From an uncultured Lachnospiraceae bacterium (GTDB lineage Bacteria > Bacillota > Clostridia > Lachnospirales > Lachnospiraceae), in the NCBI GenBank assembly GCA_947363565.1, contig CANAPP010000023.1, positions 1 to 46,460 of the forward strand: 46,460 nucleotides of DNA. The letters are read 5' to 3'. Shown here in pieces: positions 25,263 to 38,391 of the stretch; position 1 is the stretch's first letter; each line of letters starts with the position of its first letter. Made by a program: the position numbers and the translations under genes. A model generated the notes under the pieces. It did not search any database and was not told the DNA's origin. It was given only the letters and a program-made list of their open reading frames with translations.

Positions 25263-25313
25263 TCCCGCGAAAAGCCTTTCGAGTATAAGATTTTTCTCGG
25301 GCTGTTATTTTTG
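25263..25313 (+). terminator. Hairpin with T-run upstream of the recombinase
   Basis: CCCGCGAAAA pairs with TTTTTCTCGGG, followed by TTATTTTTG. It may close the glgCD transcript or insulate the recombinase. Confidence 0.55.
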
Positions 25314-25351
25314 TACCCGGCTTTACATACATTTAAAGATGAGCATATGAT

Positions 25352-25376
25352 CCCTGATGCCCCGGCGGCATCAGGG
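25352..25376. other. Perfect hairpin CCCTGATGCC/GGCATCAGGG
   Basis: Ten-base-pair perfect stem with a five-base loop, no following T-run on the plus strand. Position between terminator and recombinase suggests an attenuator or a recombination-related structure; unproven. Confidence 0.4.
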
Positions 25377-25477
25377 GCAATTTATCTGTCCCGAATTGCA
25401 GTCAAAGACACAGCTGCAAACAACGGGCATCAAACTTACAACGCTGCAGTACAGCAAATTATTCGACCCTCGCGGGC

Positions 25478-25526
25478 GTCGCCAAATGTGCATGCAAACA
25501 TGCCCGCCCGGCTCGGTACCCGCGGA
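25478..25526 (+). repeat. Dispersed repeat, copy B (left of recombinase)
   Basis: GTCGCCAAATGTGCATGCAAAC..., core ATGCCCGCCCGGCTC, ending ACCCGCGGAA. Ends 18 bases before the recombinase ATG. Aligns with copies A and C. Confidence 0.6.
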
Positions 25527-25544
25527 AATAAAGGAGAGTGCGCC

Positions 25545-27023
25545 ATGCAAAGATACGGCTACGGCTACGTCAGAGTCTCCACGGACAAACAGGAAGAATT
25601 ATCTCCCGATTCCCAGGAAAAACTTATCCGTGAATATGGAAAGAAGAATAATATCATCATCTTAAAAATCTACAACGAGATCGGCATCTCCGGCCGGTCT
25701 GCCGACAAGCGCCCTGCTTTCCAGGAGATGGTAGCTTCTGCCAAGTCAAAAGAACATCCCGTCGATGCGATCCTCGTATGGAAGTACAGCCGTTTTGCCC
25801 GGAACCAGGAAGAGTCTATCGTCTACAAGTCTCTCCTGAAAAAGCAGAACAATGTAGATGTTATCAGCGTATCGGAGCCTCTGGTAGACGGTCCCTTCGG
25901 TTCCTTGATCGAGCGAATCATCGAATGGATGGATGAATATTACTCCATCCGTCTGTCCGGCGAAGTATTCCGAGGAATGAAAGAAAACGCCATGCGCGGT
26001 TCTTTCCAGGCTCGCCCGCCGCTCGGATACCGGATAGCAGAGCGGGGCAGGCCTCCGGTTATCGTCCCCGATGAGGCTGACATTATAAGGACAATCTTTC
26101 ATAAATATGCAAACGAATCCATGAGTTTTTTCGATATAGCCAGATACCTCAACTCCCTGGGCTATAAAACAACCCATAACAAACCCTTTGAGCGGCGCTC
26201 GATCGAATATATCGTCCAGAACCCAATCTACTGCGGCATGATCCGCTGGAACCGGACACAAAATGCCACCAACGAAATCAAAGACCGGGACGAATGGATC
26301 ATCGTTGACGGTGAACAGGAGCCCATCATATCCAAAGAGCTTTATGAAAAAGCTCAGGAGCGTTATAAAAGCACCTGCAATCCTAAAGGCTCCCGCCCTT
26401 CTTCCACTTATAAGCACTGGCTCTCCGGTTTGATCAAATGCCCCGTCTGCGGACGGACACTTACCGCGAGCACACTGCACAGGAAAAACGGAGAGCCTTA
26501 TTCTTACTTTTCGTGTTATGGATACAGTAAAGGAAAATGCAAGAAACCAAACGGTATAAGTTCACTGGTGGTGGAACGGGAAGTTCTGCAGTGCTTCAGG
26601 GAAGTTCTTGATACCGGAAATATCGAGTACGAGCTTAAGCATTATGAGACAACCGAGATCATCGACGAACAGCGTGTGATCAACGAACGTATCAAAGGAC
26701 TTGTACATAAAGAAGAACGTATCAAAGCTTCCTACCGGGAAGGCATTGACACCCTCGAAGAATATAAAGAGCACAAACAGCTTATCCAGGAAGAACGGAA
26801 CCGGCTCACTGCACAGCTTAAGGAGCTATCCCGCACTCACGCCGAGAAGCCGGAAGATATCTCCCATGCGTTACTTCAGAAAGCAGGCAATGTATATGCC
26901 ATCTTAACGTCCGACCGCTATCCTATCGCCCAAAAAAATGATGCCTTAAAGCAGATTGTTGATAAAATCATCTATGACCGGACAACTGATATGCTGAAAA
27001 TCTATTATTTTTACTACACCTAA
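25545..27023 (+). CDS. Large serine recombinase
   Basis: Site-specific recombinase of 492 residues. The N-terminal resolvase domain (1-150) holds the nucleophile S12 in YGYVRVSTDKQ and the conserved RFARN and GPFGSLIERI segments. The recombinase domain (about 155-290) follows, then a zinc ribbon (CPVCGRTLTAS...SCYGYSKGKC, about 300-345) and a C-terminal coiled coil. Enzymes of this class integrate or excise phages, conjugative elements and cassettes by strand exchange at att sites. I set the start at ATG 25545 (AAGGAG upstream); an open frame back to 25311 runs through repeat B and is spurious. No other phage or transfer genes are near. Terminator at 27117. Confidence 0.93.
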   Translation: MQRYGYGYVRVSTDKQEELSPDSQEKLIREYGKKNNIIILKIYNEIGISGRSADKRPAFQEMVASAKSKEHPVDAILVWKYSRFARNQEESIVYKSLLKKQNNVDVISVSEPLVDGPFGSLIERIIEWMDEYYSIRLSGEVFRGMKENAMRGSFQARPPLGYRIAERGRPPVIVPDEADIIRTIFHKYANESMSFFDIARYLNSLGYKTTHNKPFERRSIEYIVQNPIYCGMIRWNRTQNATNEIKDRDEWIIVDGEQEPIISKELYEKAQERYKSTCNPKGSRPSSTYKHWLSGLIKCPVCGRTLTASTLHRKNGEPYSYFSCYGYSKGKCKKPNGISSLVVEREVLQCFREVLDTGNIEYELKHYETTEIIDEQRVINERIKGLVHKEERIKASYREGIDTLEEYKEHKQLIQEERNRLTAQLKELSRTHAEKPEDISHALLQKAGNVYAILTSDRYPIAQKNDALKQIVDKIIYDRTTDMLKIYYFYYT

Positions 27024-27024
27024 A

Positions 27025-27111
27025 GTCAAATGTGCATCCAAATACAAGGTGAGCCCTTGAGGCGAGGGGAGGGAGCCTGAGCCATGCCCACCCGACTCAT
27101 TGCCGCGGGAA
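27025..27111 (+). repeat. Dispersed repeat, copy C (right of recombinase)
   Basis: Begins two bases after the recombinase stop: GTCAAATGTGCATCC, then about 44 extra bases (GGCGAGGGGAGGGAGCC inside), then CATGCCCACCCGACTCATTGCCGCGGGAA. Same ends and order as copies A and B. Confidence 0.55.
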
Positions 27112-27116
27112 GAAAA

Positions 27117-27156
27117 CAACAGAAATCCCATATTATGGGGATTTCTGTTGCTTTAT
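27117..27156 (+). terminator. Recombinase terminator
   Basis: CAACAGAAATCCC and GGGATTTCTGTTG pair perfectly (13 bp) around an 8-base loop, followed by CTTTAT. It is symmetrical enough to act in both directions. Confidence 0.75.
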
Positions 27157-27158
27157 CA

Positions 27159-27560
27159 GTTGTTGCAAAAAGGATGACCCAGTGGGGCTCCAAATCCCTG
27201 GGCGACCAGGGCTACACCCCCATCCAGATCCTCCGCTACTATTACGGGGACAACATGTACATCAACACCGCCGAAGCCATCTCCGGAATTCCCGCGTCCT
27301 GGCCCGGCTACAACTTAACCCAGGGCTCTACCGGAAGCAAGGTGCGGCAGATGCAGGAACAGCTTGCCGTCATCTCCGGCGCCTACCCCGCCATTCCCAA
27401 AATCGCTGCCGACGGCATCTTCGGCCCTGCCACCGCAGCCGCAGTGAAAAAATTCCAGTCCGTATTCGGGCTGCCCGCGACCGGAATCGTGGATTACCCT
27501 ACTTGGTATAAGATATCGGAAATCTACGTGGGCGTCTCAAGGATTGCGGAGCTGACCTGA
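27159..27560 (+). pseudogene. Truncated SpoIID-like / peptidoglycan-binding protein
   Basis: About 130 codons with clear protein character but no own start. The beginning (KRMTQWGSKSLGDQGYTPIQILRYYY) resembles the C-terminal end of SpoIID/LytB domains, and is followed by a PG_binding_1 domain (LTQGSTGSKVRQMQEQL, DGIFGPATAAAVKKFQ, GLPATGIVDYPTWYKI). Upstream in-frame codons back to an ATG at 27084 run through the terminator hairpin and repeat C and cannot be native. The 5' part of the gene is missing, not interrupted nearby. If expressed at all it would be a secretion-less wall-binding stub. Confidence 0.75.
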
Positions 27561-27660: not shown

Positions 27661-30600
27661 CTAAAATACCAGTTCCTGCTGCTCGATCACTTCAATCTGC
27701 GACACTACCATCGTATCCGGCTCGTCGCCCCGCATATGCTCCGCCCGCAGATACTGCATGCCGCCCCTTAGGCTTGCCGCGATCAGGTTCAGCACATAGA
27801 TATTGTCAAACCGGTTGTAGATAGATTCGCCGCCGAGGCCGGTCAGGCAGATCATCTGCGTGTTGGTCTTCTCCGCCACATCCATGAGCGGCTTAAGAAG
27901 GTGGGAAGCGTTAGTCTGGGCAAATGGATTGTCCATGATCAGAACTTTCCCCTCGTTCCTGTCCGCGAAGATGTCCGTATCGTCCTTCCTCATATAATAG
28001 AGCAGGCTTGACAGGATGACAAACGCCGACAGAAAGCCCTCGCCGCCGGAGTTTCTCGCCACCTCCGCCCAGGTAATGGGATATTCCCGCTGCTCCTCAA
28101 TCTTGTAGAGCCGTATCTGCACATTTCCGATGCCGATGACCGTATCGTACAGATTCTTTGTGGTAATCTGGATGCCGAAATATTCCTGGGCATTCTCGTT
28201 CTGCTCAAACAGCTCCAGGCCCTTCTGGGTCACCTTGTCAATCAGATCCTGGAGACGGATACGGTAGAGATTTTCATTCTCTTCCCACTCCGGAAGCAGA
28301 ATTTTTAACATCTTCACCGGACGATTCCGGATGGTTATGGTCGAATTGCAGTCAATCTTCCCCAGGTTCCGGTGGACCTCCTTTACATAATCCTCGAAAA
28401 GTCCCGCGATATTATTCTTCTCCTGTTCTACCAGAGACACATCTACCTTGAGCTTTTCCATCAGGCTGTCATAGGACTGTATGGTCGTAGAAAGCTGCAG
28501 GAGTACCTGGGATGCATCGTCGGTAAGCTCTAGCATAGCCTCCAATGGCTTCTTATAAAAATCCTCCTGAAAATCTTCAAGCCGCACGATACGATTGAGT
28601 ACATGGGTAAGGCGCTCCTTCTCCTCCTGGCGCCTTCCCATGCTCTGGTTGTAGTCCCTGATAAGGATCCCTTTGAATTCCCGCAGCTTCCGTCCGTCCA
28701 TAGCTGCAAAATCCTGCTCCCACTCCACTTCCTCTGCTATCTTAAACACACTGTACTCTGACAGCGCGGTCAAATTTTCGTCATAATTTTTCAGGCGCTC
28801 TTTAAGTCTCTCCCCCTGGCGGTGAAGCTCTTCCCTTTCATAAGCCAGCTTGTTTTTCCGGGCCGCGAAATTAAGATTCTGGATCTTATCCTCAGGAAGG
28901 GGCGTATCCTGCCCGCATTCCTTAAGCATCTCCTTTTTACGGTCGTCCTTTCTCTGGAGCGTCAGGGCGATCTTTTTATCCTCCTCATTCCACAGCCGCT
29001 GCTTTAGCTCAATCATATCCTGGCGCTCCTTTAACATGCTCTCCTGATGCTTTTCCTCCTTGCGGCTGTATCTTATGCCTTCCCATTCATCCGCCTTAAG
29101 GCCGTATTTTTCCTTAAGGCGCACAAGCTCATCGGATATATTCTGGCAGCGCCTTGCGGCTCTTTGCTCCTGATCTTCCAGCTCCTTTAACTCCTGGGAC
29201 ATGCTCGTGGTGATGGCAGCGTAGCGCGCCTCGATCTCCCGGACATCCGAAGCGTCCATATCCAGCACCGTTGCGTCCGCGTCATGGCCATCTGCCGTCT
29301 CCTCTTTGTGTTCTCCGCCTTCTTTCAGGAAACCCGCCCATATATCTATGTTTCCGGCTTTGAGGATGTCTGGCTTAACCGCATCTTTGGGGAGGCTCTG
29401 GTAGCGCTCGTACCTGCGGATATTTTCCCGGAGCTTTTCCTGCTCTCTGATCAGGCTGTCCTTCCTGGCCTCCTTCGTCCTCTGCTCATCTAAGAGCCTT
29501 TGTTCCCTGCTTCTTGACAGCTTCTGGCGTTCCTCAAGCTTTTCCTTCTCCCGGCGGCACCTGAAAAGCTCTCTCCTGCTGGTCTCGTAGGCTTCATAAT
29601 CCTGGTAAAGTCTCTGAAAGTCTTCCAGCCTCCGCTTCTGGCGCTCGATCTCTTTTTCCGCCCGGCGGATATCCTGCTCCCGCTTCTCGGTTTCTTCCCG
29701 AAGCTTTGAAAGATTACCGGCGGTCTTTCTGAGACTTTCTTCCAGCGCACCGATCTCTGCTTTAAGCTTCTCTATCGTATTCCCATTCTGTTCCCAGCTA
29801 AGCTTGTCCACCCGCTGATTTTTCAGCTGCTCCTGCCGCTCAAAATATTCTTTATACTCTGTCCGGCGGACGGCGAGCACTTCCTGTTTCTTCTGGATCT
29901 GGCGCTCCTTCTCCTCCACGAGGAGCTTTAACTTCTCCTCATTTAACAGATTTTCGTTGAACAGCACATAAAAGCTTACGCTGGAGAACATCTGGACACC
30001 GCCGCCGTCTGACTCTCTTTCCTCTTCTAACATCTCCCTTAAGACAATGGGGATCGGGGTGGAGGTATAAAGCTCCTTTCCGCTCCCGGACAGCTTTAAA
30101 AGCTCCTGCTCCGACAAGATCAGGGCATAGGGAAGAAACGGGTTGTTCCTTACCAGCTTCTGGTTTTTTTCCTCGGAATAACCGTTTTTCCGAAGCCACT
30201 CCATACCGTACACCACATGGATGCCGAGATTTTCAAAGCCGGTCTTAAGCTCCTCGTTAAGCTCCAGCACCTTCCCCTGGGTCAGCCGCTGATATTCCTT
30301 CTGGAGGGCGTCTTCTTCTTTCTCAAGATTCCTCCGGATGCTGTCGATCTCGATGAGCTTTCTCTCCGATACACGGAGGATCTCCTCCCGCTCAAAAAGC
30401 AGGGCATCCTCAAGGTTCAGATACCGAAGGATCACCCGGCGGCCTTCAAGCTCTTTTTCATAGTCTTCCCGAAGCTTTTGCTGCCCCAAAAGCTCGGCGC
30501 CCTTTTTGATCTTTTCTGTGCGCATATCCTCGAGACTACGCTCCATGCTCTTTCTCTTCTCCCGGTCCTGCTCCTGCTGCCTTCTCATACTAAGCCGCCT

Positions 30601-32184
30601 TCGGCTCTCCTCATTAAGCTCCTTTTCGTAAGCAGCCCGTTTAATATCCATAAGCCCCGGCTCGTACTCCCCGAGGATATTGCGTGCCAGCTCCTCTTCG
30701 TAGCGCTGGTTATAATCCTCCTCCCGCTCATCGTAAGCTTCCGTCCTGCTCTTTAGCGCGCCCTCTCTCGATGCATTCTCATAAAGCTCCTGGGAAAGGT
30801 CGGCAAGCTTCACCCGTTCGCGGATAAGCTCCTCTAAGATCTCGCGGCAGTCTTTGTCATTCTGCGCGCACTTTTCCCTGTTCATCCCCATCAGCGCCTC
30901 ATACCAGCGCCGCAGGGTATACCCGAGATACTTCCGCTCAGGCTCCAGGTCTTCCCCCTTTTTTCTCACCACTTTAAGCCTCTGGCGGACAAGCTCAAGC
31001 TCGCCCTCCTCTTCCTTAAAGGTCTTTTCCTGTTTCGCGCACTGAAGGAGACTGAGTGTCTTCCCTATCCGCTCCGCCTCATGCAGAAGCCCCTCCTTCT
31101 CACTATCAAGCATATCCCGGTTGCTGATGTGGAACCGGCATGCTTGATCAAGCTTGTGGATCTCGCTTGAGAGCCTCTCGTACTCCACCCGCTCCATCTG
31201 CCCCGAGATGTCATCTTCCTTCTCCTTCGTCTGTTCAAGTTCCTTCCCGGCCATGCCGTGAAGCTTGTTTAGCTGCGCGATAAAGCAGGCCACACGATTC
31301 TCCTGCGCCCGTTTTTCTTCCTCTGCTTTCTGGTATTCCTGCGCCTTCTCCTGTATCCTGACCGCTTCTTCCTTGAACTTCTGGATGGTATCATACCGCT
31401 TGATGCTGGATTTATTCTCCTTATACTGACCCACATATTTTTCCAGTGTATCCTGGAATTCCTTCATACGGTTCTTTTCTTTGTTCAGCTTGCTCTCCAC
31501 CGCGTCAAGGAACCATTTCTCTACAAGCCCCTTTTCGTCCCGGCAGTCAGAAAAAAGCTCGGACAGGCCGGACTCTTTAAGATTCACCTTCTTGATGATC
31601 GTCTCCCATTCCTTGTAGTGGATCTGGTACTCCATCAATTTATCAAAATACTGCCTGGACTGAGCCGCATTGGTCATGTCGTAGCAGAAAAACTTCTTCG
31701 TGCGGTCTTTTTTATACCCCTCAAAAAGCTGCCTGCAATCGGCAAAGTTTTTCAGGGTCATCTCTTTTTTCTCTTTTTTTACCACTGGCAGGTGATGGAT
31801 GTCCTGTTCGCAGGGACCGCTGTATTCACAGATCAGGTTCACTATTTCCAGATTCTCATTATTCCCCTCCGCAGTATCCTGGCTCCTTCTCACCATCATC
31901 CCGGTGAGCACATATCCCGCCTGTCCGTCAAGAGCCCATTCTACCAGGATAAACGATGGTTTATTGGTGGTAAAATAACTCTCAAAGGGCCGGTCCTTCG
32001 TATCCCGGTATCTCTTGTGCACGAAAGGCGCCGTCATCATCTGCACCAATACAGACTTTCCCCCGCCATTCCTTAAAGACAGCAGCGTACTCTCCCCATT
32101 CATATGAAAACATTCATCGCTGATGCGGATCGCATTATTGTTATAGCCGATATTAATAAGACGCACTGTCTGTATCTTACTCAT
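27661..32184 (-). CDS. jetC: Wadjet SMC-like ATPase JetC
   Basis: Giant SMC/MukB-like ATPase of 1507 residues, the motor of the Wadjet complex, which extrudes DNA loops and senses small circular DNA. The N-terminal Walker A is SLRNGGGKS (36-44). About 1000 residues of charged coiled coil with a hinge-like, non-coil middle (about 610-760) follow. The C-terminal ABC signature is NSGGEGF (1378-1384) and Walker B is KVLIMDNPF with D1418; the usual catalytic Glu position is N1419. The tail (TGLGGESIYNRFDNIYVLNL) matches relatives I recall from clostridial Wadjet loci. Overlaps jetB by eight bases; GGGGGTGACGG precedes the ATG. Confidence 0.88.
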   Translation of the reverse strand: MSKIQTVRLINIGYNNNAIRISDECFHMNGESTLLSLRNGGGKSVLVQMMTAPFVHKRYRDTKDRPFESYFTTNKPSFILVEWALDGQAGYVLTGMMVRRSQDTAEGNNENLEIVNLICEYSGPCEQDIHHLPVVKKEKKEMTLKNFADCRQLFEGYKKDRTKKFFCYDMTNAAQSRQYFDKLMEYQIHYKEWETIIKKVNLKESGLSELFSDCRDEKGLVEKWFLDAVESKLNKEKNRMKEFQDTLEKYVGQYKENKSSIKRYDTIQKFKEEAVRIQEKAQEYQKAEEEKRAQENRVACFIAQLNKLHGMAGKELEQTKEKEDDISGQMERVEYERLSSEIHKLDQACRFHISNRDMLDSEKEGLLHEAERIGKTLSLLQCAKQEKTFKEEEGELELVRQRLKVVRKKGEDLEPERKYLGYTLRRWYEALMGMNREKCAQNDKDCREILEELIRERVKLADLSQELYENASREGALKSRTEAYDEREEDYNQRYEEELARNILGEYEPGLMDIKRAAYEKELNEESRRRLSMRRQQEQDREKRKSMERSLEDMRTEKIKKGAELLGQQKLREDYEKELEGRRVILRYLNLEDALLFEREEILRVSERKLIEIDSIRRNLEKEEDALQKEYQRLTQGKVLELNEELKTGFENLGIHVVYGMEWLRKNGYSEEKNQKLVRNNPFLPYALILSEQELLKLSGSGKELYTSTPIPIVLREMLEEERESDGGGVQMFSSVSFYVLFNENLLNEEKLKLLVEEKERQIQKKQEVLAVRRTEYKEYFERQEQLKNQRVDKLSWEQNGNTIEKLKAEIGALEESLRKTAGNLSKLREETEKREQDIRRAEKEIERQKRRLEDFQRLYQDYEAYETSRRELFRCRREKEKLEERQKLSRSREQRLLDEQRTKEARKDSLIREQEKLRENIRRYERYQSLPKDAVKPDILKAGNIDIWAGFLKEGGEHKEETADGHDADATVLDMDASDVREIEARYAAITTSMSQELKELEDQEQRAARRCQNISDELVRLKEKYGLKADEWEGIRYSRKEEKHQESMLKERQDMIELKQRLWNEEDKKIALTLQRKDDRKKEMLKECGQDTPLPEDKIQNLNFAARKNKLAYEREELHRQGERLKERLKNYDENLTALSEYSVFKIAEEVEWEQDFAAMDGRKLREFKGILIRDYNQSMGRRQEEKERLTHVLNRIVRLEDFQEDFYKKPLEAMLELTDDASQVLLQLSTTIQSYDSLMEKLKVDVSLVEQEKNNIAGLFEDYVKEVHRNLGKIDCNSTITIRNRPVKMLKILLPEWEENENLYRIRLQDLIDKVTQKGLELFEQNENAQEYFGIQITTKNLYDTVIGIGNVQIRLYKIEEQREYPITWAEVARNSGGEGFLSAFVILSSLLYYMRKDDTDIFADRNEGKVLIMDNPFAQTNASHLLKPLMDVAEKTNTQMICLTGLGGESIYNRFDNIYVLNLIAASLRGGMQYLRAEHMRGDEPDTMVVSQIEVIEQQELVF

Positions 32185-32893
32185 TTTCCGTCACCCCCAA
32201 TACCCGCAGCACTCTCTGGTAATTGTTCTGGTTCAGCAGATTCCAGTCCATAAAGCTGTCAAGCTTCTTCGTCGTCTTGATCATCTCATCCTGTTCCACA
32301 TACTCAATAAGCCCCTGCTTTTGCAGGAACAAAAGAATGTGATGCAGGAATCCTTCCTTCGTCGTCTTGGCGCGGGAGCCCTTCTCGTCCGACTTAAGCG
32401 CCTCGTACGCTTCATACATGTTGGAAAATGCAATCCCGGCCTGCTCCTCTTCCTCTTCGCCCAAATTCTGTGCACCCTCCTTTAGATGGCCGGACACAAG
32501 ATTCTGCAGCTCTCCTACCCGGATATATTCTCTCGCCTTACTGCTGCTTCCCTGTCCGTCAAAAAACTCCACCAAAAGCGTCAGGATCACAAACTGGGAG
32601 AGATAATAATCCTTGTCTGTAGCTCCTGACCTGCAAAGAACAGATTTTAGCTGCGCTTTTGAAAATCCAAGAAAATTATTCTCCTCCTTAGGGATCAGGT
32701 AGATGACATTGCCATACCGCTCGATCGTACTTCCCGCAATCTCCCCCTGTGATTTCACCAAATTCTGAACCTCTTCCTCCTCCGTGTACGCCTTATAAAG
32801 GAGCATCTCTTCCTCCTCCCGAAGCTCGTGGTTTTCCAGGAGATAATAAAAGATCTCCTGGCTTGCCTTTATATCATCCAATTCGTAAGCCAT
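32177..32893 (-). CDS. jetB: Wadjet accessory subunit JetB (DUF6063-type)
   Basis: 238 residues, mainly helical with Glu-rich stretches (ENHELREEEEMLL, LGEEEEEQAG). In Wadjet/MksBEF systems the gene between the kleisin-like and SMC-like genes encodes the KITE/MukE-like winged-helix partner. The length and the C-terminal LHHILLFLQKQGLIEYV winged-helix-like segment agree. I match it to DUF6063-type proteins from clostridial Wadjet loci by memory. Five bases after the jetA stop and overlapping jetC: one translation-coupled operon. Confidence 0.78.
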   Translation of the reverse strand: MAYELDDIKASQEIFYYLLENHELREEEEMLLYKAYTEEEEVQNLVKSQGEIAGSTIERYGNVIYLIPKEENNFLGFSKAQLKSVLCRSGATDKDYYLSQFVILTLLVEFFDGQGSSSKAREYIRVGELQNLVSGHLKEGAQNLGEEEEEQAGIAFSNMYEAYEALKSDEKGSRAKTTKEGFLHHILLFLQKQGLIEYVEQDEMIKTTKKLDSFMDWNLLNQNNYQRVLRVLGVTENE

Positions 32894-32898
32894 AAGCC

Positions 32899-34518
32899 CT
32901 ATTCCTTTCGCTCTATCCGTATCGATACATTTGAACAGCGGATGCTCTTCCTTACCCCGTCCTCAGTTAATATACCGTCAAATGATACGGTGCTCCCATC
33001 CTCGATACGGTTAACCTCTATCCTCTTGATATCGCTGTTCTCCGGGTACTCCTCCACCAGGTAAAGCAGCATCTCATTGAGCTGGAACTCTCCCCGTCTG
33101 TCCTGGATATATTCACTCCGTTCTTTTTTGAGGGCATCGATATCAATCTCCCGGTTTTTTAAAAGTTCCACCATGATCTCCTTAAATATCTCTGCATTAG
33201 GGATGAGCTGCTCCTTTTCCTCCCCCGCCCGGTCAAGCCGCATGCCAAGCTCCTTAAGCGTAAGCTCTCCCCTGCCCTTGGTCTCCCTTAATAGAAAGCC
33301 GAGGCTGGTCTCATACCGCTTAAGCTTCCTTTTCTGGCGTCTCTCCTGCTCAATCTGCCATCCTTCTTCATCAAAATCAAGAGCCTCCTGGGTATCCTCC
33401 TCACGCTTCTTCCTCACAGGACGCTGGAGCTGGAAGGCTTTATTCAGGTTGTACGTCTTGTCCGCCTCCCGCCCAAAAAGCGGTCTGAGGAAATAATCCA
33501 GATTCTCAAGGGCCTTTGGATTTTCCAAAACCTTGTCATAAAGCTCCGCCCGCAAAGAAAACCGCTTGATAAAAGACATCTGGATCAGCTCCTCAAGCTC
33601 CTTTGTATATAAAGCTTTCAAGTCAAAATGACTCCCCAGTATCTTCTGATGCTCATCAATGGTGCGGTTTAAATAGCCTTCAATCTCCCGCAGATAATTA
33701 AGCTTTTCCTCGTCCTTTGCACTCAGCCTCTTTACGTCGATATTCTCCTGCTCAAGCTCTTTTACACGGCTCTTTACCCGGTCTCTGTAATTCTGGAATT
33801 TTTCTTTCGTCTCCTCGATCGTCAAGAGATTTTCTTTCAGGATATCCCCATAGTCCTTTACCGAATAATTCAGGGCATTGCGCCGGATCTTTCCCATAGC
33901 CTCCTGAATCTTCTGAAGCTGGATGCGCAGCAGATTGAACACATTTTTAATCTCATCCACTGCTTTGTCATAGCTTTGCTTCTCCAGATGCATCTGGAAG
34001 ATCATCTCGTGGATGGTCAGCTTCATATTATTCTCAATCTCAAGAGTTGCCAACATCAAGTTATACCCGTCGTCGGTCAGATAATAGGACGTCCGCTTAA
34101 GCTCCCTGTCTATGTATACGATCCGATTGGCAACATAACTGATATGCATACTCTGGTATCCGTTCTTTCCAAAATCAAACCCGTCAAAATGCATGACTTT
34201 GCCTTCATTTGACAGCACCACATTTACAATAAAATCTCCCAGCTTTCTGCAGTCGTCATAGGTCATATCCTTCCGGAAATACTGCATATTGATGGTATCA
34301 ATATAAGCTCCGATATCATCCATCACACAGTTTTCCTCCTTCAAGGACTGCTCCATAATATAGAGCATCACCGCAAAGATCACATTGAGCTGCTCATCAA
34401 GCCTCTGAAAGCCGTACTGCTTCCAAATCGTCTTCTGGGCACTGTTTTGTATGATCAGTGCATAAAGACCTACATTCTTCATCCTTCTGGGAAAATGTTT
34501 CAAAAATTCATACTGCAT
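32899..34518 (-). CDS. jetA: Wadjet kleisin-like subunit JetA (DUF5716-type)
   Basis: 539 residues, cytosolic, rich in helices. The N-terminal winged-helix-like part (FKHFPRR-type MQYEFLKHFPRRM start, then YIMEQSLKEENC) is followed by long coiled coil (about 150-310) and a C-terminal charged region (EEDTQEALDFDEEGW). It agrees with the JetA family formerly called DUF5716, which acts as the kleisin bridging the SMC heads. Spacing of 23 bases from jetD and five from jetB supports one complex. The kleisin role is from family knowledge and context. Confidence 0.8.
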   Translation of the reverse strand: MQYEFLKHFPRRMKNVGLYALIIQNSAQKTIWKQYGFQRLDEQLNVIFAVMLYIMEQSLKEENCVMDDIGAYIDTINMQYFRKDMTYDDCRKLGDFIVNVVLSNEGKVMHFDGFDFGKNGYQSMHISYVANRIVYIDRELKRTSYYLTDDGYNLMLATLEIENNMKLTIHEMIFQMHLEKQSYDKAVDEIKNVFNLLRIQLQKIQEAMGKIRRNALNYSVKDYGDILKENLLTIEETKEKFQNYRDRVKSRVKELEQENIDVKRLSAKDEEKLNYLREIEGYLNRTIDEHQKILGSHFDLKALYTKELEELIQMSFIKRFSLRAELYDKVLENPKALENLDYFLRPLFGREADKTYNLNKAFQLQRPVRKKREEDTQEALDFDEEGWQIEQERRQKRKLKRYETSLGFLLRETKGRGELTLKELGMRLDRAGEEKEQLIPNAEIFKEIMVELLKNREIDIDALKKERSEYIQDRRGEFQLNEMLLYLVEEYPENSDIKRIEVNRIEDGSTVSFDGILTEDGVRKSIRCSNVSIRIERKE

Positions 34519-34541
34519 CTTTTTTCTTTTTCCTCAACAAA

Positions 34542-35534
34542 TCACCGGTAAAAATCCGATATATTCAGAATCTCCTGCGGGATATACCTTCCGCTCTCCA
34601 GCACTTTTCGCATCCGTTCTGCAAACTCCCCGGGAAAATGCCGGAAAAATTCACCGCTTATCTTTCGGTTCTGCTGCTCCTTCGTCTCCGGCAGGCTGTC
34701 TGTCCCTTTATCCTCCGCCTTCTCCAGCATCCGCTCATACGCCCGGATAAAGGGCACGATCTCCCACCTCTCTTTAAACAGGTCTGCCAGATGTTCATAG
34801 ATTCCAATCCCCTCATAATCCAGATCCCCGAAATAATAGATCCCATTCTCCCCGTCCGTCATATAAGGCTCCACACAGATATCGAAATCCCCGAACCGCT
34901 TAAGGATCCCCTTCCCCGCGCCGTAGATCAGCGTTCCTGCGGGCATACCGAAGATATACTCATTTCCCTCGAGCAAGTATCTGCGCATGCTGTAAAAGGT
35001 ATCCTTATTCTCCAGGATCAACAGGTTCTGAGGCGTCTTTCTTGTGTGGGAATAGTAGGCTAACGGCTCGCTGGTCCCGTAGATATGAAGGAAATCCTCC
35101 GTGAGATTGCAGTGCTTTAGCACCGCCTTCCCCTGTTCCCGCGAAAGGAACTTCTCCCGTCCCCAGATCTCAAAGCTCCGTTCATTTACCGACACCGGAT
35201 AGTCAAGCTTTTCCCTGTCCTGCTTTAAGTAATCACTGAGCTTTATCACCCACGTCCGCTCCCGCCTGTAGCTTTCGGGATGCGCCAGATAATAATCCAC
35301 GGCGATCAGCGGATGCAGACGGTACTTGATCTCCTCCTCAAGCGCCTGGTAATCCTTCTTCGGCTCCAAAAGCCAGTACTCCCGGAAAAGCGCCGGCTTT
35401 TTCCCGTTAGTCTTTGATGCCTTCAACGGCTTGATCTTTCCCTTTTCCATCAGCCCTGTCACGTACTCATACTGCTCCCTGTAGGAAAGCTCTCCCTTAG
35501 CCAAAACTAACTGCTCCAAAGATATCCGCTTCAT
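34542..35534 (-). CDS. jetD: Wadjet nuclease subunit JetD
   Basis: 330-residue DNA-cleaving subunit related to the topoisomerase VI A-subunit Toprim fold. Toprim residues are present: E175 in LLILENKD, and D237/D239 with E241 in YYFGDLDYEG. An N-terminal winged-helix-like region (SLEQLVLAKGELSYREQYEYV) probably contacts DNA. In Wadjet complexes JetD cuts plasmid DNA once loop extrusion stalls on a closed circle. It is the first gene of the operon here (jetD-A-B-C) rather than the last as in jetABCD. GGGAAAGGAAC precedes the ATG. Confidence 0.85.
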   Translation of the reverse strand: MKRISLEQLVLAKGELSYREQYEYVTGLMEKGKIKPLKASKTNGKKPALFREYWLLEPKKDYQALEEEIKYRLHPLIAVDYYLAHPESYRRERTWVIKLSDYLKQDREKLDYPVSVNERSFEIWGREKFLSREQGKAVLKHCNLTEDFLHIYGTSEPLAYYSHTRKTPQNLLILENKDTFYSMRRYLLEGNEYIFGMPAGTLIYGAGKGILKRFGDFDICVEPYMTDGENGIYYFGDLDYEGIGIYEHLADLFKERWEIVPFIRAYERMLEKAEDKGTDSLPETKEQQNRKISGEFFRHFPGEFAERMRKVLESGRYIPQEILNISDFYR

Positions 35535-35735
35535 AAAAGTTCCTTTCCCTGCCAGAAATCATTCTCTGCCAGCATACTTATTGTAACACTTTCTGACATT
35601 TTTCTCCATAGTGAAATCTTAACCCGACTAAACTTACCAGTAAACTACCAGAATATGCATACATTTTTTTCATTTGGACAAAAATATCCGTAATTGGACG
35701 AATCCAAATGCCAAAATAAAAAGCGAGGTATCATC
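35535..35735. promoter_or_regulatory. Divergent promoter region jetD / small protein
   Basis: On the minus strand TACAAT (35580-35585) with a poor -35 (TGGAGA, 17 bases) may serve jetD. Near 35672-35712 lie two TTGGAC copies and an inverted ATTTGGA...TCCAAAT pair, which could be promoter parts or an operator for the plus-strand gene. No known site is recognised. Confidence 0.4.
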
Positions 35736-35951
35736 ATGATGGAACAGAAAAATAAGAAAAGACAGCAGAAAAAGACCAACCAGGAGATCATCGATTCCTA
35801 CGACTATCTGTCCAATGCAGCCTCCATGCAGGACTGCACCGGACTGATCCCCTCTGAGCCGGAGTCCGCGGCGGAGCTTGAGGCTTACGAGGATCTGTAT
35901 CATTTTCTCCCGCCGAACGGAAATGTATCGAATATTGATTCTGACGAATAA
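35736..35951 (+). CDS. Small hydrophilic protein of unknown function
   Basis: 71 residues (or 70 from the second Met) with GCGAGG ahead of the ATG. The N-terminus is basic (KNKKRQQKKT) and the remainder acidic (IIDSYDYLSNAASMQDCTGLIP, with a single Cys, then ESAAELEAYEDLYHFLPP). I recall similar uncharacterised small proteins in Lachnospiraceae but can name no function. Divergent from jetD and followed by a strong terminator, so it is an independent unit. Confidence 0.65.
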   Translation: MMEQKNKKRQQKKTNQEIIDSYDYLSNAASMQDCTGLIPSEPESAAELEAYEDLYHFLPPNGNVSNIDSDE

Positions 35952-36432: not shown

Positions 36433-37167
36433 TCAATGCCCATGCCGGTGATGCCTCCCATGGCCTTTACCGCTGTCACTGTCTTCCTCATATCCGCCGT
36501 TTCCATTCCCATGCCCATGCCCTTTGCAGGTCTCAATCCGGTCTTCGATCTCACCCATGGACATACCGTGGCAATCCTCCACGGTAACGGATTCATCATA
36601 CCGAGAAAGTTCAAGGCACACCCGGTATTTCCCAAAAGACATGGACTGCCGGTGGGCCTCTTCCCTGCAGGTCAGATCGCTCGTATAAGTTCTCGCACCA
36701 TACCTTCCGGTAAGCTCATCTTCGCGGATCTCCTCCAGGATCTTCTCCCGGCTATCCGAGATAACTGTGATAAACACCCGGGAATCTTCGGCCAGATACC
36801 CCAGGTAACCCTCATCCGCAAGAAGCCGCCGGATCGCTTTAAGATAAGGGACATGCTTTAGTGCCGCCTGCTTGAGAAGCCCCTCTCCGTCCCGGTTATA
36901 GGCGTCCACCTCCACGACTCTGCCGAAGCGGTTTACACCAAGCTCCACGGAAGGATTCACATCTATACTGATGTAGGAGACAGGGCGTTTATATATCGTA
37001 TATCCCGCTGCTGTCAGCATCAGGCATAAACATGCCGCCGCGAGAGCGTACCTGCGTATCCGCCTGTCCCGGACGCGCTTTCGCTGCTGCCGCAGATAAT
37101 CCATCGTGCTTTTCTTAAGCTCCTCTGACGCCCGGATATCCTTCATACTTTCATGGATCCTGTTCAT
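36433..37167 (-). CDS. RsgI-like anti-sigma factor
   Basis: 244 residues from the ATG at 37167, whose ATGA overlaps the sigma-factor stop. A short cytosolic N-terminus is followed by one membrane helix (about 41-60) and an RsgI-like extracytoplasmic domain (SYISIDVNPSVELGVNRFGRVV, then AYNRDG) as in anti-sigma factors that control SigI-type sigma factors. The C-terminus is Gly/His-rich (GHGHGNGNGG; GRHHRHGH), perhaps a sensor tail binding metal or wall material. By position it should hold the neighbouring ECF sigma inactive until a cell-surface signal arrives. Confidence 0.82.
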   Translation of the reverse strand: MNRIHESMKDIRASEELKKSTMDYLRQQRKRVRDRRIRRYALAAACLCLMLTAAGYTIYKRPVSYISIDVNPSVELGVNRFGRVVEVDAYNRDGEGLLKQAALKHVPYLKAIRRLLADEGYLGYLAEDSRVFITVISDSREKILEEIREDELTGRYGARTYTSDLTCREEAHRQSMSFGKYRVCLELSRYDESVTVEDCHGMSMGEIEDRIETCKGHGHGNGNGGYEEDSDSGKGHGRHHRHGH

Positions 37168-37619
37168 GCCCACTCACCCCCTAACTTCTCCTTAAGAAGC
37201 TCTCTGGCTCTTGAAAGCCATGAGTATACTGTATTTTCCTTTTTTCCGAGGACTCTGGCAATCTCCACTGCGGAATAATCCTCATAATAATGCAGGTAGA
37301 TAACGTTTTTGTACTTTTCCGGGAGGGAAAGGACCGCCTGCAAGACCTCCGAAGCTGTCTCGTCAACAACCCCACTCTCCTCTTCGATCACATCAAGAGG
37401 CACCCATTTCCTGCGCGAAGCGTACCGCAGATGATCCGTACACGCATTGATCGTCACCCGCGCAAACCACGCCTTCTCGTGCTCCCCGCTCGCAAAAGAC
37501 TTATCGCTGAGCAGATATTTTAAATAGACATTCTGGAATACGTCCTCTGTGTCATATCTATTTTTCAAATGCAAAAAACATATTCTCCTGACCATATCAG
37601 CGTAAGCATCCATGGCCAT
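37164..37619 (-). CDS. ECF-family RNA polymerase sigma factor
   Basis: 151 residues from ATG 37619. Region 2 is seen in YADMVRRICFLHLKNRYDTEDVFQNVYLKYL and region 4 in LPEKYKNVIYLHYYEDYSAVEIARVLGKKENTVYSWLSRARE. The frame is open upstream to 37733 but overlaps the permease end, so a later start is more likely. Paired with the RsgI-like gene by a four-base overlap, it is a self-contained sigma/anti-sigma switch; the His-rich peptide and perhaps the ABC genes are candidate targets. Confidence 0.88.
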   Translation of the reverse strand: MAMDAYADMVRRICFLHLKNRYDTEDVFQNVYLKYLLSDKSFASGEHEKAWFARVTINACTDHLRYASRRKWVPLDVIEEESGVVDETASEVLQAVLSLPEKYKNVIYLHYYEDYSAVEIARVLGKKENTVYSWLSRARELLKEKLGGEWA

Positions 37620-37686
37620 ACTTAATTCTTCCTCACTCCTCAACGCAGCTCCCTCCCTCACCCGCAGCCATATCTTACGTATTAAC

Positions 37687-38391
37687 CTAGACCAGATCCT
37701 TCTTTTCTGCACCGCAGATGGACAGCGCGGCAAACGCTAAGGAGACCGCGGTAAGCACCGCCGGAAATACCACATTTTCCCTCAGGGTAAAGTCACCCAC
37801 ATTTGCCTGCGTAAGGAAGATCAGCAGGAATGAGGTGACGACCGCCGCCTTTGAGGACTTCATAACAAGCCCTGCAAACAGCGCGATAAAGCTCATGCTT
37901 ACAATCACTGCGGATGTTAAGATAAGCTGGACATAGAAGGATACGCTGCCCGGATGAACATCAATGATGAAAGATGACGGCATCACCTTTGCCCCCATAA
38001 ACACGCACAGGCAGATCAAAAGCTTTGTAAAAACAAGCGCCGCGAAGTTGAAGCTCCAGACCGCGATCATCTGGGAGGCCAGTATCTTCTGCCGCCTGAT
38101 GGGATAGGAAAACATCAGGTTCATGGTCCTGTTTTGGTATGCGTTTACGATAAAGGACGAGAGCATCACGCTGGTATAGACCAGAAATGCCATGCTGGTA
38201 AACAGCTCGATCGGCGCGGAGATCACTTCCATCCCCGGCGCTGCGTCAAGCATCCCGTCCGGATCGTCAGCAATGCCGAAAAACGCCAGGGCAAAGATGA
38301 ATAAGCCAAGCAGCACCGCCATAATGACTGCGCCCCGGATATATTTCCCGATATTATTCTTCTTCCATTCAAGTCTGATCAATTTTAACAT
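37687..38391 (-). CDS. ABC-2 type permease
   Basis: 234-residue membrane protein with six hydrophobic segments (about 20-40, 65-85, 110-133, 150-175, 182-200, 205-225). It partners the ATPase whose stop it overlaps by seven bases. It resembles bacitracin/lantibiotic-type BcrB or EcsB-like permeases that export or flip peptide antibiotics or lipids. The substrate is not visible in sequence. Confidence 0.85.
   Translation of the reverse strand: MLKLIRLEWKKNNIGKYIRGAVIMAVLLGLFIFALAFFGIADDPDGMLDAAPGMEVISAPIELFTSMAFLVYTSVMLSSFIVNAYQNRTMNLMFSYPIRRQKILASQMIAVWSFNFAALVFTKLLICLCVFMGAKVMPSSFIIDVHPGSVSFYVQLILTSAVIVSMSFIALFAGLVMKSSKAAVVTSFLLIFLTQANVGDFTLRENVVFPAVLTAVSLAFAALSICGAEKKDLV

Follow-up and report, generated by a model that had tools for sequence, protein, structure and literature searches.

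Wadjet systems (JetABCD) are divided into three types by sequence similarity and operon organization, and passages of a 2023 review state that most work concerns type I, with types II and III still to be characterized (PMC10586767). The same passages attribute the sensing of small closed circles to JetABC, through ATP-driven extrusion, and the cutting to JetD. A 2025 paper (PMC12647877), in the sections available, reconstitutes type I and II complexes and treats type III in passing, with the remark that Wadjet-III has no hinge channel and that its arms tend to be long. Members of the Wadjet group without JetD, MukBEF and several others among them, have already been published according to excerpts of PMC7617805, and part of PMC9252829 indicates that PADLOC reports Muk-like sets as Wadjet 'other'. 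Here, we examine a 46,460-nucleotide stretch (hereafter the window) of contig CANAPP010000023.1 from an uncultured Lachnospiraceae bacterium (GCA_947363565.1), in which a first-pass annotation made from the letters alone had proposed a type III-like Wadjet operon with the nuclease gene first, and had called this type the least studied, in agreement with the passages of the 2023 review and the 2025 paper. We conclude that the locus is very probably a type III Wadjet (JetABCD) that is resident and vertically inherited and would restrict small circular DNA. The unexpected features are an asparagine conserved in the ATPase site and a sister lineage that lacks the nuclease and often lies beside recR, not the gene order.

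A type III operon with the nuclease gene first

Four intact, co-directional open reading frames (ORFs) lie on the minus strand in the order jetD-jetA-jetB-jetC, exactly where the first-pass annotation had placed four tightly spaced or overlapping genes, followed upstream by a short intergenic stretch:

27661–32184, minus strand: jetC, SMC-like (structural maintenance of chromosomes) ATPase of 1507 amino acids (aa), motifs conserved; PADLOC JetC3, 2136.6 bits over residues 1–1507
32177–32893, minus strand: jetB, KITE-type subunit by profile, DUF6063, 238 aa; PADLOC JetB3, 436.6 bits over residues 1–238
32899–34518, minus strand: jetA, kleisin-type subunit by profile, 539 aa; PADLOC JetA3, 895.1 bits over residues 1–538
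34542–35534, minus strand: jetD, predicted Toprim nuclease subunit (E175, D237, D239), 330 aa; PADLOC JetD3, 416.6 bits over residues 1–328
35535–35693, no strand: short divergent intergenic stretch with one sigma-70-like match at 35608–35580 (minus strand), 46 nucleotides (nt) upstream of jetD

Given the gaps of 23 nt between jetD and jetA and 5 nt between jetA and jetB, and the 8-nt overlap of jetB with jetC, we read the four genes as one operon. The sigma-70-like match, a consensus match only, is a possible promoter for it. The G+C content of the four genes (0.45–0.51) is near the whole-window value of 0.486.

A profile search, which the annotation had named among the ways to check its proposal, matched all four proteins to Wadjet type III: type III models scored best for each, the 1507-residue SMC-like ATPase was recovered over its full length, and the only other PADLOC matches were weak ones to JetD1 (E 7.7e-6 and 4.1e-5). 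Pfam recognizes DUF6063 in JetB (266.2 bits) and JetD_C in JetD (25.4 bits, cut-off 22); JetA and JetC match no Pfam family at E <= 0.001, and none of the four proteins has an NCBIfam match. The assignment to DUF5716/DUF6063 made in the annotation therefore stands for DUF6063 but not for DUF5716, which PADLOC attaches to type I JetA models. The profile evidence for the operon is far beyond chance. Judged by sequence, the four genes are a genuine, intact type III Wadjet operon and a further member of a known system: JetA, JetB, JetC and JetD genes are adjacent and fit the type III profiles better than those of types I and II, JetD keeps the Toprim acidic residues, and JetC has Walker A, signature and Walker B motifs, with an asparagine replacing the usual catalytic glutamate. 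The four matches, the DUF6063 JetB and the long JetC are as in type III, and nothing excludes membership. The genome carries one JetC3, its second JetC3 match being weak (E 3.8e-4).

The Toprim residues named in the annotation hold up: E175, D237 and D239 are invariant, together with N176 and D178, in an alignment of 26 JetD proteins, and a second (script) alignment gives E175 in 29/29 and D237 and D239 in 30/30. An AlphaFold2 model of JetD (pLDDT 88.5, pTM 0.57) places E175 after strand 170–174 and D237/D239 after strand 231–235, and its search against the Protein Data Bank (PDB) returned four matches below E 0.001 (best E 3.1e-5), all topoisomerase VI chains of ~360 residues that we take to be the A subunit. 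Among solved structures, the JetD profile matched MksG, the JetD of Corynebacterium glutamicum, best but weakly (E 0.04); both the GDxDxxG and the EN-D regions align, the latter contributing next to no score. Passages of PMC10123090 report in vitro cleavage by MksG in the absence of MksBEF.

Type I (JetABCD; Corynebacterium MksBEFG) likewise consists of SMC, kleisin, KITE and Toprim subunits and has the JetD Toprim motifs, and type II (for example, nvJET of Neobacillus vireti) also has the four subunits, with a JetC longer than that of type I. Type I differs in a JetC of ~1100 aa with D-E-A-F at Walker B and in a PADLOC-identified JetD after JetC (L240 and L242; a third type I locus, L241, has no JetD beside JetC), whereas the window operon has neither a DUF5716/DUF3375 JetA nor a D-E-A-F Walker B. 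Type II differs in its DUF2397 JetA and DUF2398 JetB (L243), again in D-E-A-F, and in JetD after JetC by PADLOC in L243, L244 and L245. JetA lies ahead of JetC in these loci, confirmed by PADLOC in L240, L242 and L243 and judged from ORF size and place in L244 and L245. The JetB2 model PDLC00548 had no match in 199 genomes or controls, and the JetD1 model PDLC00522 matched 0/148 Clostridia. MukBEF and MksBEF share the JetABC-type core but have no nuclease subunit and organize the chromosome; here, by contrast, jetD is intact at 34542–35534.

For gene order we used 40 loci from genus and family searches and then 39 more of a distant group, leaving out three short matches at or near contig ends (G078, G119, G237), together with a collection scan that supplied 80 named loci, the best 80 of 560 confirmed. 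Loci were counted as distinct after removal of exact duplicates over the last 300 JetC residues, and L041 and L093, one contig entered twice with JetC cut short, stand outside the resulting count of 97. Across these 97 distinct loci of the jetD branch the order is D-A-B-C in 86, A-B-C in nine and C only in two, with no other order found. Cultured members of the branch, such as Acetatifactor muris and Muricomes intestini, also have D-A-B-C. Six of the 11 loci without an adjacent jetD reach a contig edge (L108, L132, L155, L166, L159, L168), and three (L047, L107, L109) have JetD elsewhere in the genome (G180, G737 and G738). In G180 (L047/L217, C10, ~80060–90513), jetD lies ~9.5 kb upstream of jetABC on the same strand; the interval holds a large Big_2-domain protein and a YibE/F-like gene. 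The last two, L057 (G349) and L130 (G736, completeness not given), have full-length jetABC and no JetD match anywhere in the genome, and are apparent independent losses of jetD that offer natural material for comparison. The nuclease-first order is fixed in this branch. The annotation had noted it as unlike jetABCD, which is correct, although it is the usual order of the branch rather than a peculiarity of this strain. Since the types were defined partly by operon organization (PMC10586767, in part), the D-first order may have belonged to the original type III definition. PADLOC profiles, the order in relatives and the JetD model together support the type III-like, nuclease-first proposal.

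An asparagine in the JetC Walker B motif

JetC carries Walker A as N39-G-G-G-K43-S, the signature as N1378-S-G-G-E1382 and Walker B as V-L-I-M-D1418-N1419-P-F. The D-N-P-F motif occurs in 79/79 profile-found JetC3 rows that cover Walker B; one further row of the 80 (window, L037–L076, L178–L216), L041, is cut short before it. Adding the 80 named loci gives 158/160, the other two being one cut-short contig counted twice; the named loci are biased for Walker B, because the scan pattern contained D-N-P-F and some genomes are repeated, and we do not rely on them. JetC proteins from other families of Clostridia (L220, L221) also have D-N-P-F. In contrast, D-E-A-F is found in 12/12 type I JetC rows, some of them near-copies (12 loci; 19/199 genomes matched), and in 12/12 type II rows (best 12; 65/398 genomes matched).

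On this comparison, N1419 occupies the place of the usual catalytic glutamate and is invariant in the type III rows read, nearly all of which come from one family of Clostridia. The placement is based mainly on a pattern common to both, a hydrophobic strand followed by D-x-x-F after the signature motif; profile alignment also puts D-N-P-F on D-E-A-F, weakly (type I, E 2e-4, probability 46%; type II, E 0.014, probability 3%). Walker A is mostly L-x-N-G-G-G-K-S/T in type III versus G-x-x-[GA]-x-G-K-S/T in types I and II, and its lysine is kept in 98/98 type III rows. Two candidates for a substitute acidic residue, E82 (also in 9/12 type I rows) and E204 (type III only, a gap in type I), were rejected, neither being evidence of catalysis, and an apparent D-H-P-F in three rows proved to be an unrelated earlier motif rather than Walker B. 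Structural data added little: the model of the JetC C-lobe was too poor to use (mean pLDDT 60.8), a JetC sequence search of solved structures gave one meaningless match, and the best 60 of 207 profile matches to solved structures were coiled-coil stretches, some from SMC proteins.

SMC loop extrusion is held to need ATP hydrolysis, and exchange of the Walker B glutamate for glutamine is the usual hydrolysis-deficient SMC mutant. With an asparagine at this place, the type I ATP cycle is not simply transferable to type III, and the hydrolysis step probably differs in detail, either by using another base or by running a slower cycle. A literature search of titles and passages, mostly outside subscription papers, returned no report of a type III Walker B asparagine.

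A sister lineage without jetD

A distant, type III-like group of JetC3 matches in the same family (48 loci; L068–L076, L178–L216) has jetA-jetB-jetC with jetD in 0/48 stretches, four of which (L188, L189, L197, L207) start <200 nt from jetA or inside the operon, where an upstream jetD is not visible. A JetD profile search of 44 genomes with only the jetD-less kind (G022 and G096 being outside it) gave no full match; five of the 44 had partial matches covering 46–129 of 338 positions, and it is possible that JetD in this lineage is too divergent for the profile. Both kinds occur together in G155 and G178, whose JetD belongs to the D-A-B-C locus.

Upstream, recR lies within 2.4 kb of jetA in 20/48 stretches, accompanied by dnaX in 19, and a TPR-like protein of ~700–1300 aa lies downstream in 36/48, its Pfam TPR matches being weak and, in one of four proteins tested, absent. 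In a tree of 110 rows with 12 type I sequences as outgroup, obtained by a quick search with a long-branch warning, JetC of the 48 loci forms one clade with support 100. The nine jetD-less rows shown have the signature G-S-T-G-Q-S-Q-G, compared with mostly N-S-G-G-E-G-F in the jetD branch, in which the distant D-A-B-C rows L064–L067 have variants such as S-S-G-A-E-K-F. Among 291 genomes of Clostridia, five have a JetC matching the jetD-less profile at E <= 1e-100 (two of this family, three of other families). Taken together, the lineage looks like a MukBEF-like, condensin-type chromosomal system that Wadjet profiles also score. No description of it or of its recR neighbourhood was found in a literature search of titles, to which the operon list of PMC7617805 (Data S1) did not belong.

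Chromosomal setting

JetC3 is present in 6/6 genomes of the genus, our own included, and at family level 78/397 genomes match the JetC3 profile at E <= 1e-20. The block from 27172 to at least 35941 of the window is matched in collinear pieces with 76–85% DNA identity in L090, L091, L092 and L124, and L093 is collinear from 28235 on, its contig starting inside jetC. Against three same-genus relatives, dN/dS is 0.11–0.21 for jetD, 0.03–0.05 for jetA, 0.01–0.02 for jetB and 0.04–0.08 for jetC, with synonymous sites near saturation in some pairs; all four genes are under purifying selection, with weaker constraint on jetD than on jetA-jetC. A search of 72,556 plasmid records gave no JetA match and one of 50,697 phage records no JetD match, and 43 pattern matches to JetC relatives in viral contigs yielded no confirmed case. 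Because the block is collinear in the genus, is under selection and lacks plasmid, phage and viral matches, we read it as a resident chromosomal system.

A defence island was considered and rejected, given that the neighbours are housekeeping genes by Pfam (phenylalanyl-tRNA synthetase, Hsp90, threonine synthase, FeoB, CTP synthase) and that ten other ORFs gave two weak PADLOC matches (left of 19000). Nor did we find a variable site, plasmid or phage carriage or nearby defence genes, as a mobile defence island would have, the PADLOC scan covering ORFs left of 36000. No fixed partner gene emerged either: the largest neighbour cluster, of which the one member checked is an ABC transporter ATPase, occurs in 17/70 loci, on both sides and strands.

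A large serine recombinase (window 25311–27171; real start probably 25546) adjoins the jet block and has a weak PADLOC match to LmuB (E 2.9e-4). Recent acquisition of the jet genes together with it was rejected, because the jet block is collinear in the genus and none of the five other genus genomes has a match to the recombinase. It sits where a SpoIID/peptidoglycan-binding-like gene of the relatives (L090 14666–16000) is broken, with the C-terminal part in window 27172–27560 and the N-terminal part on contig C63 (G000:C63:5277-7723, L177), and both junctions share GGATGACC. The glgC-glgD pair ends ~0.5 kb before the recombinase and lies ~250 kb from jetC in G001. Given this distance and the unmatched recombinase, the site marks a strain-specific insertion or rearrangement, or an assembly join. 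A repeat of ~50–150 bp immediately upstream of the recombinase (window ~25381–25538) has nine other copies in the same genome and some in relatives.

On the other side of the operon, an 85-aa ORF at 35694–35951 (plus strand), divergent from jetD, has counterparts of 75–86% identity in each of the five genus relatives and matches nothing in Pfam, PADLOC or NCBIfam. It was rejected as an accessory gene, being confined to the genus among the fetched loci. Beside the jet block, at window 36433–37733, are a sigma-70-type factor gene and an RsgI-like anti-sigma partner, also seen in L090, L092 and L093.

Function and alternatives

By analogy with type I and II work, from which loop extrusion, shape sensing and cleavage are carried over, JetA (kleisin), JetB (KITE) and JetC (SMC ATPase) would assemble into a ring-shaped motor that, once loaded on DNA, draws in a circle until no more DNA is left, so that ATP-driven extrusion would sense small closed circles. 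The JetD Toprim dimer would be inactive until then and would cut the trapped segment. That the target is plasmids is likewise suggested by types I and II.

Several observations weigh against a plasmid-restricting Wadjet. The locus, found in all six genus genomes, varies less in its occurrence than a set of defence genes would be expected to, and it lies among housekeeping genes. In JetC, N1419 holds the place of the catalytic glutamate, and passages of PMC10123090 report that the E1042Q variant of the type I MksB of C. glutamicum was impaired and judged probably inactive. For the JetD model, the topoisomerase VI matches have low TM-scores (0.37), and the 50 fold-search rows listed include no chain named JetD or MksG.

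The presence in 6/6 genus genomes at a collinear site, the stronger purifying selection on jetA-jetC than on jetD and the related JetABC lineage that lacks jetD and lies beside recR in 20/48 stretches would all suit a complex that mainly organizes the host chromosome like MukBEF/MksBEF, with JetD in a housekeeping role rather than in plasmid restriction. We consider this unlikely, however, as jetD remains next to jetABC in 86/97 distinct relatives, its acidic Toprim residues do not vary among the 26 aligned proteins, and the lineage that resembles a housekeeping system forms a clade of its own (48 rows, support 100), G155 and G178 carrying one of each kind. The asparagine at the catalytic glutamate's place could also mean that the JetC ATPase is dead and the operon either decaying or an ATP-binding-only device. 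This seems highly improbable: decay would not fix one residue, yet the asparagine is invariant in all 79 profile-found covering rows, the jetD-less lineage included, the Walker A lysine is kept throughout the 98 type III rows, and jetC has a dN/dS of 0.04–0.08. Phage genomes also circularize, and PADLOC lists Wadjet among anti-phage systems, which would favour defence against phages rather than plasmids. We give this very little credence, given that types I and II act on circular, smaller DNA in the portions of PMC10586767 and PMC12647877 available.

We therefore retain a type III Wadjet as the preferred reading. A bolder proposal, which we hold tentatively and would give somewhat less than an even chance, is that type III has an SMC motor without the canonical catalytic glutamate, in which ATP is split by another base, or so slowly that ATP binding drives plasmid sensing, and that the jetD-less, often recR-linked sister, which shares this active site, is a chromosomal condensin of gut Clostridia that derives from type III and is so far undescribed. 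SMC motors that are intact and under selection and have an asparagine at this position allow a direct test of whether an SMC motor needs the Walker B glutamate.

With the sister lineage, nature offers two versions of one machine for comparison, one that probably cuts plasmids and one that probably organizes the chromosome, and a JetC3 or JetABC match alone should not count as defence. In practice, the locus is one candidate explanation should some gut Lachnospiraceae prove difficult to transform.

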